Below are positions 26,832 to 53,061 of a stretch of DNA of 64,000 nt, piece after piece. The notes below the pieces were generated by a model, which did no database searches, was not told where the DNA came from, and saw only the letters and a program-made list of their open reading frames with translations. The position numbers were made by a program, and so were the translations under genes. The first letter of the stretch is position 1, and each line of letters starts with the position of its first letter. Location of the stretch: the NCBI GenBank assembly GCA_024867545.1, contig JANFNE010000011.1, forward strand, positions 186,001 through 250,000, read 5' to 3'. This DNA comes from Phytopythium helicoides. Taxonomy: Eukaryota > Oomycota > Peronosporomycetes > Pythiales > Pythiaceae.

Positions 26832-29800
26832 CTAGAGCGACACATTGATCTCGGCCTGCAGGAACGAATCGCCCGGGATGCGCGCAAGAATCTTGCTCAG
26901 TGGGTCAACGGGCGGTGCGTACATCTCGAACGTCGCAGGAGCCGTCGTGATCTTGCTTAGGTCGAGCCGGAAGAATGTCCAGCAGCCGACCTCAATTTCC
27001 TCCGTGACGAGGCTGCGGTGCCGCAACTCCATCACCGCAACGCAACCTGCCATCAAGCACATCATAATGACCATTAAACACGAGATCACAACGCACAACT
27101 TGTGCTAGCACGGAGAAACGTACCCTCCTTGAGATGCTCCAGTGGTGTCTGGATGTACCACGAGTTGCCGAACCACCAGTAATTGCCGCCAGTCTGGATC
27201 AATGAGTTGGGAGTTTGCTGCTGGCGCTCGACCACGGCGCCGTTTGCATCGAGAACATATAGGTTAAAGTGTGGTGTCTCCATGATGGGTCCCGTGGCGA
27301 CGGCGATGGCGCCAAGGAACACCGACACGTAAGTGCTGTCCGAGAGACGAGTAGGCACGCCGATGAGTGGCATTCGCTCCGGATCCTTTTCGGCATGTGT
27401 CGCTGGGTCAAGGATCTCGCGGAGATCGTCCTCATCAGCTAGACCCACAGGAGTGAGGCCCTTGTTGTTAGCGATCGTTGGGTCCGCGCCGCGCTTCATC
27501 AGCGTCTCCGCCAAGTCATACCGGTTGAGCTCAACGGCATAATGCAGCGCAGTATCACCGTTCTCATCGACTGCATTCACGTCAGCTCCATTCTCAATGA
27601 GCCAGACGCTGACCTTGGCGGCTTCAAAACCTTCGTCCTCGTCGTTCTGGACGGCCAAGTGCAAAGGAGTGAAACCCGCGCGATTCTTCATATTGACGTA
27701 CTCGCGGCGCAGGAAAGTGTCGATGCAGATCATGTTCTGGAACGCCGGCACCGCAGTCGTAATGCGCACGCCCTGAACCTTGCGAATTGCCGTCATCCAT
27801 TCGTGGACCTCCTCCTCAGAGTCGGCAGCAAGGGACATGATGCCCTCGGGGTTCTTGCTGCTCTTGAGACGAGGGGAATGGATCTCAAAACAGTGGTCGA
27901 CATGGGAGACGCGCTTGATGGTTGCATCGCACAACTCGAGCATCTTGAGCGGGATCTTTTCCTTCGGAGCCTTGTAGTACGAAAGACAGACTTCGTCTAC
28001 AATCACATATCGCTTGGTCGCCCACCGGTTTCCGCTTGCCTTACGCAAGAAACCTTCCTTGTAGATTTCAATTTGAACAGTGGTTGGGAGCACTGGGGGG
28101 AGTCCGCCAGCCGTCGACAGTCGGCGGTTGGCACCACTCATCCCATTACGAGGAGTAGACGAAACGAGTGTGCGTCGTCCCGGCCGCTTCGGAGCAGAGT
28201 GGTCACCGGGCTTGAACGATGGCTGCATCGAGAACGAGGAGCTACTGAACGTGGACAAACTCTTCGATGGCGAGCGAGCAGGGGTCGAGCCGTTTGCAGG
28301 TGTACCGAGCGACGCGGTGCTAGCACTAGACACTGAGCGAAGCTTGTTGGTGAGGTTGTCCAGCTGCTGCTGCTGCGTCAATCCGTCTTCAAGTCCAGCA
28401 GAGCTGCTGGCACTGCTTGCACTGCGTGTTCGGGCACCAGCAAAGTCGAAGTGCGCGCCTGCACCCGAGTTTCGGTTGGCCACCTTGCACAACAACCGCA
28501 CCATGTCCAAGTGCGCAACGCGGGCCGCGTAATGAAGCGGCGTGCTGCCAGCGGCATCCTTGCCGTATACAAGGTCCTCCAGCTGCGGGGATTCTTCCAA
28601 AACGAACCGAGCGAGGTTCAAGTCACCATTCTTGGCGGCAACATGTACTAGGGAGATCATATCATGACGGCGATCACGCACACGCAACATTCCTGGGATT
28701 TCTTGCGCGATACGGCTGACTTCAGTCAGGTCGTACTCATCCGCAGCATCGAACATGTGAGCAGTGCGGTTGCGCATTCGGACGCGAGCCAAGAAAATTC
28801 GCACGACGCCAAGGACACGCGCCATTGCTCGACGGCGAGTGCTTGCAACCTTTGATGCCCTCTTCTGCCTGAAAACGCTCTGCACCAAAATGATACGAGC
28901 CCTCATCTTGTTGTACTTGATTCGCTGCACATGTCCGCGGTAGCGTGCCTGAAGGCAGATAACTCCACGGCGACATTTCTTAAACGTCCTGCGGCCCAAG
29001 AAAGTGCGGACGGCATTCTGAACGATCCTTGTTGAACGGAGGATGCGCAGATACTGTTTGCGGGCGACTGTCATGCGCGAAAAGGCTTGCAATGTAATGA
29101 TCTTCTCGCGCGTGTCACGGTACTTGCGGGCCTGGGCGTGGCAACGCCACAGTGACTGCAACAGGATAATGTGATCATTGCGCTTTGCGAACCGTCGGCG
29201 CTGGTTCTGCATGCGCCACAGGGACTGAATGATAATAATCTTCTTGCGCTCATCGCGGTACCGCTGTCGGCAGATGACCATACGACCGAATGCCTGAATC
29301 CGGATAGCCATCTTTCGGTCGTGTGCAAGCTTCCTACGCAGAAGATTGCGACGAATCATCGTTTGCATCGCGATAGTCGCCTCTCTGCCCTTAAGGTACT
29401 CAGTTCGCACTTTGTTGGCACGGACTCGGGCTTGGATCATGATCACACGGCGACGTGAGCGAGCAAATCTGCGTCGAGCCAGGAAGCCGCGAATAATGCG
29501 GGCAATCTGAATCTGCGCCTTATTACGCTTAGCAGCGCGAGCACGAGCAGACTTGCCGTATTTAAGCCGCGCAATGTATCCCCGACCAGCAGCATGCAGC
29601 ACGATTCCTGCACTCTTCATCTCGCTGTATTTCTTGCGTCCACGGTATCCCTTGTATCGAGCCGCAATCACAGTAGCAGCCTTTCGTTTCTGAAGGAATG
29701 CACGACGATCATGACGAACATTACGAGCGTTCGCGAGTTTGGCCGCAGCACGTTTCTGCCGCAAGAATCGTCGACGCGCAAGGAAGCACCGAACTTGAGC

Positions 29801-32614
29801 GTTAATCTTGGTCGCCGCAGGAGGTGCATGGCGTAGATACCAGATGTGGCGACGTGCTCGCTTGCCTCGGATTCGGCTTTGAACAATAACGGTTGCCTTT
29901 CGAAGTCGAAGGTACTTTCGGCGCTGAATAAACTGTCGGCTCACTGCCTGGGCACGTGTGACTCGGCGCTTGGTCTTAAGGAACCAACGGCGTGCAATGA
30001 ATCGACGCGCCAGCGCTTGAACACGGATAATGTGAGCACGCGCAGTCAGGTACTTGCGGCGCTGTAAACTACCGCGAATTTGGCTTTGGATCTTGACCGC
30101 AGCGTCACTCATGATCTTGCGCATCTCGTTGTCTAGGTTTCTCAGCTGGCTGTCTCGAAGGAAAACCTTTTTGTGGCCAAGCTGCCAGTTTTCGCGAGGA
30201 ATAAGCCGCAAGATGACTTCACAAAGCTGCTTCTCATCCATACTTGCACGCTTTTCCTTCGGAAGATGGCGCGTGAGGATCTGATACTTCTGATAGAACT
30301 CACCAAAGAGACGGCGTACAGGAAAACCCGATCTACGGATGCGCACAGTCTCCATGACACCGAGGTAGATAAGTTGGTTCAAAATCAAGTCTGCGTTCCA
30401 CCCTTGAGGGAATCGGAGGTTGTTAGGCTTCACACATCGCACAAACCACGGAGCTGTAGCCTTCAGTTCAAGCATTAGATTCGCCATTTGATCGCGGAAC
30501 TTTCGGCCCACAGTCATTGTACCAGTCATCTTGTTGCCTGCACGAGAGATAGGCTTTCGGGCCGCATTGCCACCTGCTGCGGCACCACCAGGCTTCTTTT
30601 CAGCGACCGGATAAAGCTGTCGTAAGAACTCGCACTTGGAGCTATCCATAAGTGAGACAAGGTCGCTGTGTAGCGAGTCGTCGTTCTTTTCAAGGAAGCC
30701 AGTAACGTTGTACGTGACCTGCCCAGCGTAGTGGTGAATGATGAATTCGTCGTTGGCAAAGCGCGGCTTGGAGTAATAAATCACTGTGCCTTCCGGGACT
30801 TTGCCTTGAGGAATGTGGGTCTGGTGCAGCTTCTTGATAAAGTTCTCATCGCTTGCGCGTCGCCCAAGCATTGCTTGCTCGTCAAGCAGAGGAAGGATAC
30901 CAAGCGGCTTCTTGTCAATAAGATCGAGACAGGGGCCATTGTCCTTGAACTCGAGTCGCGAGAAGTCAATGCCTTCCTCAACGTAGACATCCTGCTCATA
31001 CACGAACACGTGTTGGTTGAACTGTTGCTGTAGCATCTCGTTGGTATAGTTGATGCACAGCTGCTCGAACGAATTCACTTGAAGACTCTCAAAGCCGAAA
31101 ATGTCCAGAATACCGATGAACTTGGCGGCTGCGCCAGCGCCAGAACCTCCGCCAGTGAGTTGAGAGGTCGACTTGTTGATCTGCCCAACAAGCCAATCGA
31201 ATAGCTTGCTGAAAATGTCTTTCGCGAGACCATTCGTAGATCGGGCAGACTCCACCGAAGATAGAGAGATCTCAGCCATGGAGCCACGCGCACCAGCAGA
31301 AATCGTTCGCTTTGTCAGCGCAAATTCAAGCTCGCCAGGTGTCACCATCATGAGTTCAGCAAGGTTCGTGATGTCGTCATTGTTCGCGATTTGAGACTCG
31401 TTTTTCTCGTTTTCTGTAAACTCGAGGTTTCCCAAGTGCAACACGCAAGCAACCAGCGTAAAGATCGTCTTTTGAAGATCCGGATCAATGCCAACAGTGC
31501 CCATCGCCTCAACGAGCTCCTTGAAGTCCTTCTTGTCGTTGATTTCGGGGACCTGGATACAATTTCCCTGGTTGAGGTAGAAAAATTCGCTGGCACTCTT
31601 GAGCTTCAGAGCAGTCTTCTCCGCAGGAGACATGCCCGCACACATCTGATAGAAAATATGGTAGTTACGCTCGTTCTCGGCGCAGCCAACGATGCGACTC
31701 TTCTCGAGCAAGAAGTGGTTTGTCGTCGCACCCGAGATCGTGCCGTCGTTGTGGTAGTAGATCTTGATGAACTTGCCGAAGCGACTACTGTTGTCATTTC
31801 GGATGGTCTTGGCATTGCCGAACGCCTCCAGCAGCGGGTTACTCTGCAGCACGCACTGCTCAACAGATCCACCGCCGCTGCCACTACCGTCAGTACCGGC
31901 AGAGCTGCTTGGGGCGCTCTTGCTGCCGCTCTTTGGTCCTTTCTTTCCGATTTCACTGATGTTGGCTAGGTACTGCCTCAACAAAGATTATACGTCAGAG
32001 CTCTGGTCCGGACGATCAAGTGAGAGTGTGCACTCTACACACCCGCATGATGTACTTGGAAGCCTCCGTTTTGCCGGCACCACTCTCACCCGACACCAGC
32101 ACGGACTGGCACTTGCCGTCCCTCCACAGTGCGTGGTAAGCTCCGTGCGCCGTCGAGTAGACGTGTGGCACAGGGTTGTCGAGCTTGCCGATCGAGTCCA
32201 GCTCGGGAAAGTTGTAGAGCATGGGGATGTTTTTGTACGGGTTGATGGAGATGAGGATGTCGCCGGTGTAAGTCTGTCAGCAAAGTGCGTTAGCCAAAGA
32301 TCCAAGGATCGCCGCCATAGCACGAAGCCACGTACGTAGATGTGGTCCTCGAGGTAGCGGCGGCGCAGCAGGTCGAGCAGCGGCGCCTCGTGCAGGTTGT
32401 CCATCTCGGCGATGTTGTCCAAGTCCATCGAGTGTGTCGGGTCGTACGGGTGCACCTGGTCCACCGAGAACTGCTGCTCTGTGTCCACCTCGGGCACCAC
32501 CACGTGCAGCTTCTCGCCATCGTCCTCCACGACCGTGGCGAGCTGCCACACGTTGCGCGCGTCCGGCACCCAGACCTTCTCGCCCTCTCGGCGCGGCACG
32601 CGCGGCGTCGCCAT
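26832..32614 (-). CDS. Oomycete long-neck myosin (class-31-like): motor, ~19 IQ, ANK, PH, ANK
   Basis: Actin-based motor of 1857 aa. Exons: 32614-32336, 32273-32043, 31972-27124, 27046-26832. The motor has the P-loop GESGAGKTEASKYIM, switch-1 NDNSSRFGKFIKI and switch-2 LDIFGFESLQVNSFEQL. A neck of about 19 consecutive IQ-type repeats of about 23 residues follows (roughly 790-1240), then ankyrin repeats (about 1250-1330), a PH domain (about 1467-1572), more ankyrin repeats (about 1594-1680) and a C-terminal domain I cannot name. From memory, this order matches myosin class 31, described from Phytophthora. No coiled coil is obvious, so it may act as a monomeric membrane-linked motor (inference). 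The frame stays open upstream to 32734; ATG at 32614 was chosen because the SH3-like start of the motor follows directly. The gene has no frame breaks. Confidence 0.93.
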
Positions 32615-51225: not shown

Positions 51226-53061
51226 TTAGACGATGTGGATGTCGCTCTCCGAGTACTGGCACAGTGGGTCCTTGATACCGGCACCGAGCTCCTCGGGCTC
51301 GCCGTCCTCGCTGCCCTGAGACCAAGCGCACACGTCGTAGCCATCATCGTCGGCCTTGATGTAGATGTTGGAAAGCGTAGCCTCGTCGCCGTAGTTATCG
51401 TTGACAGTCACGATGCTCTTTCCCGGGTTCACGGCGTAGATGTTGGACAGCTGCACGAAGCGCTGGCGGTCACCGCAGGTGCCGCACGAGCGGTAGAGCT
51501 TGCCAAAGTCCTCAGCGTAGAAGCTGTCAACCTTGACCGTACCGTAGCCGTTGTGCTGGATGACCTTGTCGTCGGCGTAGCGAGCACCACCGCCGTTCAC
51601 CGTCGAGACACTGCTGGCCGAGCCACCCTTGATGCTGAGCGCATCCTCGCAAACATCGTCCCACCACACGTTCTCGATGGTGCAATCGTGCTCGTCGCAG
51701 TGCACACCCTCCATCTGGTTCTTGCCGATGATCACGTTCTTCAGCGTGCCACCAGGCTTGACCTGGAAGACAGCCGTGGAACCACCGCTCTCAGTCTGGC
51801 CATCGCACGACACGTCCGAGCGCTCGTACGTCTGCATATTGCCGTCAAACACTTCGCCGGCCGCAACAACGTAGACTTCATCAAGCTGGACGGTTCCAGT
51901 GCTGGCCGGCCACGATCCATCCGGGACACCCGAAGAAGTGGTGGTCGTCGAGGTGGACGAGCTAGTAGAGTTGGACGACGAAGTCGAAGCCGACGTCGCA
52001 GCCGTCGTTGGTTCGGGGGTGTACTCGCTGTTGTCATCATCGTTGTTGTCATCGTCGTTGCCTCCCTCCTCGCTGGACGAGGGGGCCTCCGTTGATTCAT
52101 CGTCATCGTTGTCGTCGGTGTTCTCCTCCTCGCTGGACGAGGGGGCCTCCGTCGACTCCTCTTCATCGTTGTCGTCGGTGTTCTCCTCTTCGCTTGAAGA
52201 GGGAGCCTCCGTCGACTCCTCCTCCGCGTTGTCGCTGCCGTTGTTCTCCTCCTCGCTAGTCGACGGAGCATCAGTCGTTTCCTCGTCGTCACCCTCGTTA
52301 CCCGTCTCAGTGATTCCGCTGCCGCCGTTCAGCGGGATGCAGTTCTCTGCGATTCAGATTTTGAACATCAGCAGACTGCACATGGCAACATTGCAAGCTC
52401 GGAGAAGAAGAACTTACTGTAGACCTGCCACACGGTGTCGCCGTCGACGCCCTGGAAGGCGAGCCAGTAGAAGCGCATCATGCCACAGTCGCCGTTTGCA
52501 CACGACGAGTAGTCAACCGGGAAGATGGACTTGACGTCCTGGTCCTCACCGCCGTAGGCCGAGTAGCAGTCGTCATTGTGCAGCACCATGGTGTCATCAA
52601 GCCAAATCTCGCAGGGGCCCTACAGACGCCAACCCAATGCAGTGTTAGCCTTCGATACCCACCAGGTGAGCAGCTACGATTGTGGAATAAGAAATACGTA
52701 CCACGTGGACCATGCCGCGCGAGAAGGTGGCCGTGCCGTCGGTCGGGATGTCCTGGGGCGTGCCGTTAGGATCCGTGAAGCCGCAGTCCTCGCCGTACTT
52801 GGACGTGTCGTCGAGCAGCGAGCGGATGTTGGTCACGCCGTTCTCCTTGGCGAGCTTGACGTACGTGTCGACACTGCCCTGGTTGTTGCCGTCCCACTCG
52901 TCGCTGGGCCAGGTGGGCTCGATCTGCACGATCCATGCCGAGGTGGTCGAGTCCTTGAACTGCGACTCGGGGATAAGCATGTAGCCGTGGCCGGCCACGA
53001 GCGTCACGCGGGCGGTCACAGCCACAGCGGCCGACAGGATAGTGAAGCGAGTCGACACCAT
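51226..53061 (-). CDS. Secreted AA17-type pectin monooxygenase fused to a PL3 pectate lyase
   Basis: One 560-aa polypeptide from exons 53061-52702, 52619-52418, 52346-51226, with exact phases. A signal peptide (1-24) ends so that His25 (HGYM) becomes the mature N-terminal His of a copper histidine brace. The second His is probably His119 in MVHVGPCEIWLDD, and MMRFYWLAFQ...VYKNC completes the AA17 pattern known from Phytophthora pectin LPMOs. A Ser/Thr/Glu/Asp-rich linker (about 196-330) contains 60-bp tandem repeats. A PL3 pectate lyase follows, with VHC, CTIENVWWDDVCEDALSIKG, VIQHNGYGTV and GKLYRSCGTC. The protein should be extracellular and attack homogalacturonan oxidatively and by beta-elimination. 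The fusion is seen directly; activity is inferred. The gene has a long upstream region. Confidence 0.93.
52069..52260 (-). repeat. 60-bp tandem repeat encoding the AA17-PL3 linker
   Basis: About three units in 60-bp register encode EESTEAPSSSEEENTDDND-like peptides. Units differ mainly by synonymous or conservative changes. The length is a multiple of three, so copy-number change would alter linker length without breaking the frame. Confidence 0.85.

Follow-up and report, generated by a model that had tools for sequence, protein, structure and literature searches.

Does a single gene of the oomycete Phytopythium helicoides encode two different pectin-degrading enzymes on one polypeptide? The question is raised by a minus-strand gene at positions 53061-51226 of a 64,000-nucleotide stretch of contig JANFNE010000011.1 (assembly GCA_024867545.1, positions 186,001 to 250,000; the whole stretch is referred to here as the window), for which an original prediction made from the sequence alone had proposed a secreted fusion of an AA17 pectin monooxygenase with a PL3 pectate lyase. 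The analysis presented here makes it quite likely that the gene encodes one secreted two-enzyme AA17-PL3 protein, in which oxidase and lyase would cooperate on pectin; judged from its sequence the product is probably a bifunctional pectin-degrading enzyme. It is a new domain architecture built from two known families, not a new kind of enzyme.

A single reading frame spans both modules

In-silico splicing of the gene yields 560 codons plus a stop in three exons (360+202+1121 nt) with zero internal stops, such that one continuous frame passes through AA17 module, linker and PL3 module as had been proposed, and the earlier exon model and its coordinates prove correct. The features of the gene are as follows.

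53061-52702, minus strand: exon 1, 360 nt
52990..53061, minus strand: signal-peptide-like N-terminus, residues 1-24, placed by visual inspection and from the point where the mature PDB chains begin
52702..52989, minus strand: exon 1 part of the AA17 module, residues 25-120, carrying the predicted copper-brace residues His25 and His119
52620..52701, minus strand: intron 1, GT..AG (GTACGT..TGTAG), phase 0, 82 nt; homologous AA17 proteins are continuous across this position
52619-52418, minus strand: exon 2, 202 nt
52418..52619, minus strand: exon 2 part of the AA17 module, residue 121 to the first base of codon 188, from PDB matches
52347..52417, minus strand: intron 2, GT..AG (GTAAGT..CGCAG), phase 1, 71 nt, near the end of the AA17 module
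52346-51226, minus strand: exon 3, 1121 nt
52330..52346, minus strand: start of exon 3 and end of the AA17 module, completing K188 and adding NCIPL (189-193), from PDB matches
51925..52329, minus strand: acidic Ser/Thr linker, residues 194-328, net charge -45 over 135 residues
52065..52284, minus strand: 60-bp tandem repeat inside the linker, about 3.6 copies, from a repeat search
51925..52044, minus strand: C-terminal 40 residues of the linker, common to a second fusion locus on contig C23, from score comparison
51226..51924, minus strand: PL3 pectate lyase module, residues 329-560 with the stop codon, from Pfam, PDB and an AlphaFold model

Either intron, if retained, would introduce an early in-frame stop. 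The signal-like stretch at residues 1-24, judged by eye, has an arginine within its hydrophobic part. The repeat array and the charge of the linker bear out its earlier description as repetitive and acidic. The GC content of the window lies at 49-58% per 8-kb block.

The AA17 module

The N-terminal part matches three solved structures in the PDB over the whole module, namely 8s71 (1.3e-67), 8s6s (1.4e-65) and 6z5y (3.6e-63), with residues 25-193 (query 1-169) aligned to chain residues 1 to 170-171 and the conserved cysteines in common. The depositors name 6z5y a lytic polysaccharide monooxygenase (LPMO) and 8s71 and 8s6s a 'mucin-like protein'; we take all three to be AA17 enzymes of Phytophthora origin, with 6z5y presumably the founding one. 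Pfam returned no match for this part of the protein, PF03211 being the only family found on the whole chain. His25 coincides with residue 1 of all three PDB chains, in agreement with the mature N-terminal histidine that had been foreseen, cleavage before it being predicted. His25 and His119 align with H1 and H97 of 8s71 and are present in 65/65 and 98% respectively of the 66 aligned domains from the retrieved proteins. At the level of sequence, the module is thus assigned to AA17 by whole-domain homology together with the copper-brace histidines, which upholds the original family assignment.

The PL3 module

PF03211 is found at residues 332-532 (2.1e-76), and a PDB search with the PL3 part gave 13 pectate lyase sequences, the best being 1ee6 at 8.3e-27. 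Residues E421, D422, K448, K470 and R473 align respectively with E83, D84, K107, K129 and R132 of 1EE6, described as Ca-binding and catalytic residues in a passage of PMC10992409. With the exception of Asp63, the Ca-binding and catalytic residues of 1EE6 are conserved across the 166 PL3 domains cut from retrieved proteins. An AlphaFold model, which covers exon 3 only and was built on 18 sequences, presents an almost all-beta PL3 body with block means of the predicted local distance difference test (pLDDT) of 79-97, preceded by some 137 residues with block means of 38-52. The low linker values would fit a disordered region, although few relatives align there. Compared with the PDB, the exon 3 model gave 23 matches at E<=0.001, all of them PL3-type pectate lyases of the C. 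bescii family 3, PelI, Pel3 and 1EE6 kinds. PL3 membership thus follows from PF03211, the predicted fold, the Ca ligands and the catalytic Lys/Lys/Arg set, and the module is complete as first described, its predicted fold resembling pectate lyase crystal structures. Profile and sequence comparison, which had been suggested as a way of checking both identities, places the first module in AA17 (PDB sequence match) and the second in PL3 (Pfam and PDB).

One half of the protein might instead serve merely as an anchor, either with PL3 acting as a pectate-binding module that targets the AA17 oxidase or with an inactive AA17 on what is in effect a lyase; since the copper-brace and the lyase catalytic residues are both retained, we regard this as unlikely.

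AA17 and PL3 genes of the genome and a second fusion locus

Across the 49.06-Mb assembly, 42 PL3 and 83 AA17 frame matches merge into 38 PL3 and 73 AA17 loci, counts which uncollapsed haplotypes may inflate. Only two AA17-PL3 pairs lie within 1 kb of each other among all these loci: the window gene, with a gap of 501 nt, and C23:404867-406500, with a gap of 446 nt and the same order and strand. At this second fusion locus (L022) a GT..AG intron can be read where the window gene has intron 2. On C57 a PL3 gene lies 1.7 kb before an AA17 gene, each having its own start.

The second fusion sits inside an array of AA17 genes, C23:392717-414885, several members of which are frame-broken. At the position of intron 1 there are AA17 copies on C23 that read through in one frame without an intron; the frame-broken copy C23:414313-414885 does carry one, and further AA17 loci are interrupted at this point too, so intron 1 looks old. 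AA17 matches on C57:746910-804572 and C90:899579-951263 score alike, and C90 may be an uncollapsed haplotype of C57. PL3 genes also form arrays, at C35:1905144-1932715, C67:70464-82941 and C19:17045-25270, composed of near-identical copies in alternating orientation (-,+,-,+); these are inverted-repeat arrays, not tandem ones.

One protein or two

Two genes or transcripts could have been read as one, with the AA17 message ending in or before the linker and PL3 made separately or not at all. A retained intron 2 would indeed stop the AA17 protein shortly past its domain, and AA17 and PL3 loci of this genome as a rule stand alone. However, the frame contains no Met from residue 169 to residue 357, and residue 358 already lies inside the PL3 module, so a complete PL3 cannot start at an AUG of its own. 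Nor is there a signal-like stretch before the module. Of the 38 distinct PL3 starts in the genome, 35 are immediately preceded by a Met with a signal-like stretch (assessed by eye on 39 rows, one gene appearing twice); the exceptions comprise the two fusions, in the window and on C23, and one divergent PL3 of C57, which has its own signal-like start further upstream and a Thr/Pro-rich linker. The frame of the linker moreover stays open across the repeat array, and the linker-PL3 joint recurs at the second locus. A separate PL3 start, which the original prediction had named as a point that would count against it, was thus looked for, and what was found is a module that has no in-frame AUG of its own and follows a linker end common to both fusions. 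Taken together these observations make a pair of separate genes very improbable.

Origin of the fusion and constraint on its modules

The last 40 residues of the linker aligned to the C23 linker with a score of 117, against 77 for the best other target and 84 for the best of 500 shuffles. The comparison comprised 448 targets of two sorts, non-module segments longer than 40 residues in the retrieved proteins and Ser/Thr-rich windows in the fetched loci; two of these targets, by their score, are the C23 stretch itself, and the fetched loci represent part of the 73 AA17 loci, those on C90 and C22, for example, having been left out. The acidic N-terminal part of the linker is generic, its score with C23 being reached by 7 of the 448 targets, one of which is again the C23 stretch itself. 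As the specific 40-residue end is common to both fusions, the linker-PL3 joint is probably of single origin, and the sequences suggest that the linker-PL3 exon probably arose once, by the joining of a PL3 module to an AA17 gene.

For the trees, database domains had to cover at least 85% of either module and genome pieces at least 70% (PL3) or at least 50% (AA17), and database rows more than 95% alike and identical genome rows were removed. The PL3 tree was thereby reduced from 169 database domains and 20 genome rows to 110, or 109 without a duplicate window row, and the AA17 tree from 68 database and 45 genome rows to 95. Approximately unbiased (AU) tests were run on hand-chosen rows, 37 of the 109 for PL3 and 33 of the 95 for AA17. 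Frame-broken PL3 copies at C19:367-370k dropped out of the trees, and C23:414313-414885, read through its intron, is present in the wide AA17 tree and left out of the AU-test tree. The window PL3 is sister to the free-standing C19:399460 (support 100/99). The AA17 of the C23 fusion belongs to the C23 array (100/99), and the window AA17 stands outside the node (96/97) that holds this array and a Phytophthora group, joining them at 88/68.

The ratio of nonsynonymous to synonymous substitution rates (dN/dS) for the window PL3 against its sister C19:399460 is 0.084 at a synonymous divergence (dS) of 0.98, with similar values on the two terminal branches (0.080 and 0.070); between two free-standing PL3 copies it is 0.124.

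Several observations weigh against an intact, functional fusion of single origin. The C23 copy is frame-disrupted, with several changes of reading frame and a linker frame that ends in a stop, so that either at least one fusion has not been preserved intact or there are assembly errors at that locus; the copy may be a pseudogene or a carrier of such errors. The support for the joint from DNA is weak, as 1 of 300 codon shuffles scores as high as the real sequence. The AU test rejects the AA17 parts of the two fusions as sisters (p-AU 7e-67, with the C23 fragment filling about half of the columns), and the PL3 parts are likewise not sisters, less clearly than for AA17 (p-AU 0.045). For AA17, dN/dS reaches 0.21-0.28 in comparisons with three array copies and exceeds the 0.147 measured between two of these free-standing copies; such pairwise values mix the time before and after fusion. 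Finally, Asp63 of 1EE6 corresponds to Glu400 here, yet at least 97% of the 166 oomycete PL3 domains compared have Glu at this position. On these ratios both modules look constrained, AA17 somewhat less so.

As the modules of the two fusions are not sisters, the loci could have arisen independently within the same genome, with local paralogues fusing at each of them. This would account for the different tree positions of both their AA17 and their PL3 parts; it would not account for a 40-residue linker end common to both and found in no other target of a comparison that covered some of the AA17 loci, and we consider it fairly unlikely. The best-fitting order of rearrangements, as we infer it, begins with a single fusion, whose AA17 part would later have been swapped at intron 2 or overwritten through gene conversion by neighbouring array members. 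We tentatively extend this to a broader proposal, one that may well not hold, in which a terminal exon of linker and PL3 was made once and recombined at intron 2 with different AA17 5' parts, giving one lineage of oomycetes a family of oxidase-lyase proteins in which copper-dependent pectin oxidation and beta-elimination would be physically coupled.

It must also be weighed whether the fusion is an assembly error, or arose recently and neutrally as array members recombined and serves no selected function. In favour of such an origin, both AA17 and PL3 occur in multi-copy clusters with frame-broken members and the second fusion is disrupted. The window copy, however, has an intact frame and intact catalytic residues, and the joint common to two contigs occurs in copies that are strongly diverged (PL3 dS 0.88), a pattern that favours an old joint over an assembly chimera. 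An artefact or neutral by-product is therefore quite unlikely in our judgement.

Distribution among relatives

A protein search with the full query, among 7986 candidates sharing most words with it, gave 321 matches, of which the best 120 were examined; a search with AA17 only, within a fusion-like length range, reduced 195 candidates to 67 proteins. None of the 184 proteins retrieved in this way (67 AA17 and 117 PL3) combines AA17 with PL3: PF03211 is absent from the 67 AA17 proteins of fusion-like length, and among the best 120 of the 321 full-query matches the combination was not found by matched stretches of any length. A protein with both modules is expected to score about 600 bits, an estimate from the summed module scores, and so to fall within these best 120. 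Candidates in these searches must share exact words with the query, gene calling without introns would split such fusions at intron 2, and the matches include no named proteome close to the source organism; uniqueness is therefore not established.

The best matches to the full query, at 700-813 bits, were considered as possible fusions, and mapping of their modules shows them to be PL3 proteins, many of them PL3-PL3 tandems. Counted at a module coverage of at least 75%, as matched-stretch counts split single modules (for example in P0130, which has no full module), the best 120 of the 321 matches comprise 59 proteins with two PL3 modules, 55 with one, three with AA17 only and three without a full module; 59 of the 117 PL3 proteins among them thus have two full PL3 modules. 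Two or three AA17 modules per chain occur in P0057, P0082 and P0155, some of which may be annotation merges. Such homotypic tandem proteins, mostly of Phytophthora and Nothophytophthora, resemble the window protein in having several catalytic modules and Ser/Thr-rich linkers but keep to a single family per chain. The fused PL3 was also considered as the former second module of a tandem in which something else had taken the place of the first; this was rejected, as the trees group it with single-PL3 proteins, C19:399460 and one first module, not with second modules.

Like the AA17 pectin monooxygenases 8s71, 8s6s and 6z5y, the window protein has a full module with His1, a second His and the cysteines. 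Known AA17 enzymes, however, end in an extension, whereas that of the window protein leads into a PL3 lyase, and it lacks the Cys-basic tail which some relatives bear. The C-terminal extension of AA17 relatives is described in part of PMC8615602 as disordered and Ser/Pro/Thr-rich. Among free-standing oomycete PL3 proteins, the closest in the genome, C19:399460 (88% identity), shares the whole module with its catalytic and Ca residues; it differs in possessing its own signal-like start and a long C-terminal extension, both of which the fused PL3 lacks. Multimodular LPMOs likewise join an LPMO to another carbohydrate-active module such as a glycoside hydrolase (GH) domain or a carbohydrate-binding module, and an AA15 LPMO joined with GH9 or GH18 is mentioned in a passage of PMC8615602. 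In the window protein, by contrast, the LPMO is paired with a polysaccharide lyase, and pectin is the expected substrate. The literature on AA17, PL3, LPMO-lyase fusions and Phytopythium carbohydrate-active enzymes, judged by title and start of abstract, yielded no AA17-PL3 fusion, which is not proof of absence. To our knowledge no LPMO-lyase fusion has been described before.

C-terminal tails and other features of the window

A short cysteine-containing basic C-terminus (like KCN.RRKRN) ends 20 of the 67 AA17 and 18 of the 117 PL3 proteins, two unrelated folds, always following an extension 40 or more residues long; the pattern matches 19 of 3680 shuffled tails and none of 43 control proteins. 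In the source genome (L024, L025) a similar tail ends AA17 genes, PL3 genes and an unrelated Ser/Thr-rich open reading frame at L025:4582-5655. The tail may be a sorting or retention signal, and one may speculate that the fused protein, which lacks it, would be retained differently at the surface. Nothing relevant to such a tail was found in the literature by title and start of abstract.

A scan of the window for the oomycete initiator motif (at most three mismatches) gave 11 matches against 12.9 expected and is uninformative; a bacterial promoter scan gave no match, its bacterial model not applying to oomycete DNA. Elsewhere in the window, 27086-31984 on the minus strand holds a 1632-residue open reading frame with myosin head, IQ, PH, ankyrin and Aida_C2 domains, an unusual-looking myosin. 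An AMP-ligase open reading frame neighbouring the fusion gene shares 80% identity with a protein labelled 'lgn', 56% with Nothophytophthora, 49-56% with Phytophthora and 47-49% with Globisporangium sequences.

Proposed function and significance

For the fusion we infer secretion, expression, both activities, their cooperation and a role in infection, along the following lines. Signal cleavage would expose His25 as the N-terminus, where together with His119 it would form the copper brace, and the AA17 module would then oxidatively nick homogalacturonan. The flexible and strongly negative linker of about 135 residues would carry the PL3 pectate lyase, predicted to cleave de-esterified homogalacturonan through Ca-dependent beta-elimination, in which K448 is expected to act as the base; Ca-assisted beta-elimination is the PL3 mechanism given in a passage of PMC10992409. 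The tether would let the lyase act where the oxidase has already loosened the chains, and the negative charge of the linker may hold it away from the polymer, which is likewise negative. Fragments would be altered at both ends, oxidised at one and 4,5-unsaturated at the other, possibly allowing easier degradation and less sensing by the plant. A passage of PMC13224840 has AA17 cleaving pectin to oxidised, decarboxylated oligogalacturonides that the host does not recognize, although the same passage also terms the AA17 enzyme berberine-bridge-like, confusing two families.

That homotypic tandems are common in both families makes the architecture less surprising, whereas a heterotypic pairing of oxidase with lyase, both directed at one polymer, makes it more so. 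According to part of PMC12537922, expression of PL3 and AA17, along with other pectin enzymes, accompanies the infection-induced AA7 oxidases of Phytophthora. There PL3 and AA17 are separate enzymes; a natural fusion would tie the two steps together by evolution. It also offers a ready construct for probing the cooperation of oxidation and elimination on pectin, and it suggests module exchange at an intron boundary as a route by which new wall-degrading enzymes may arise in oomycetes.
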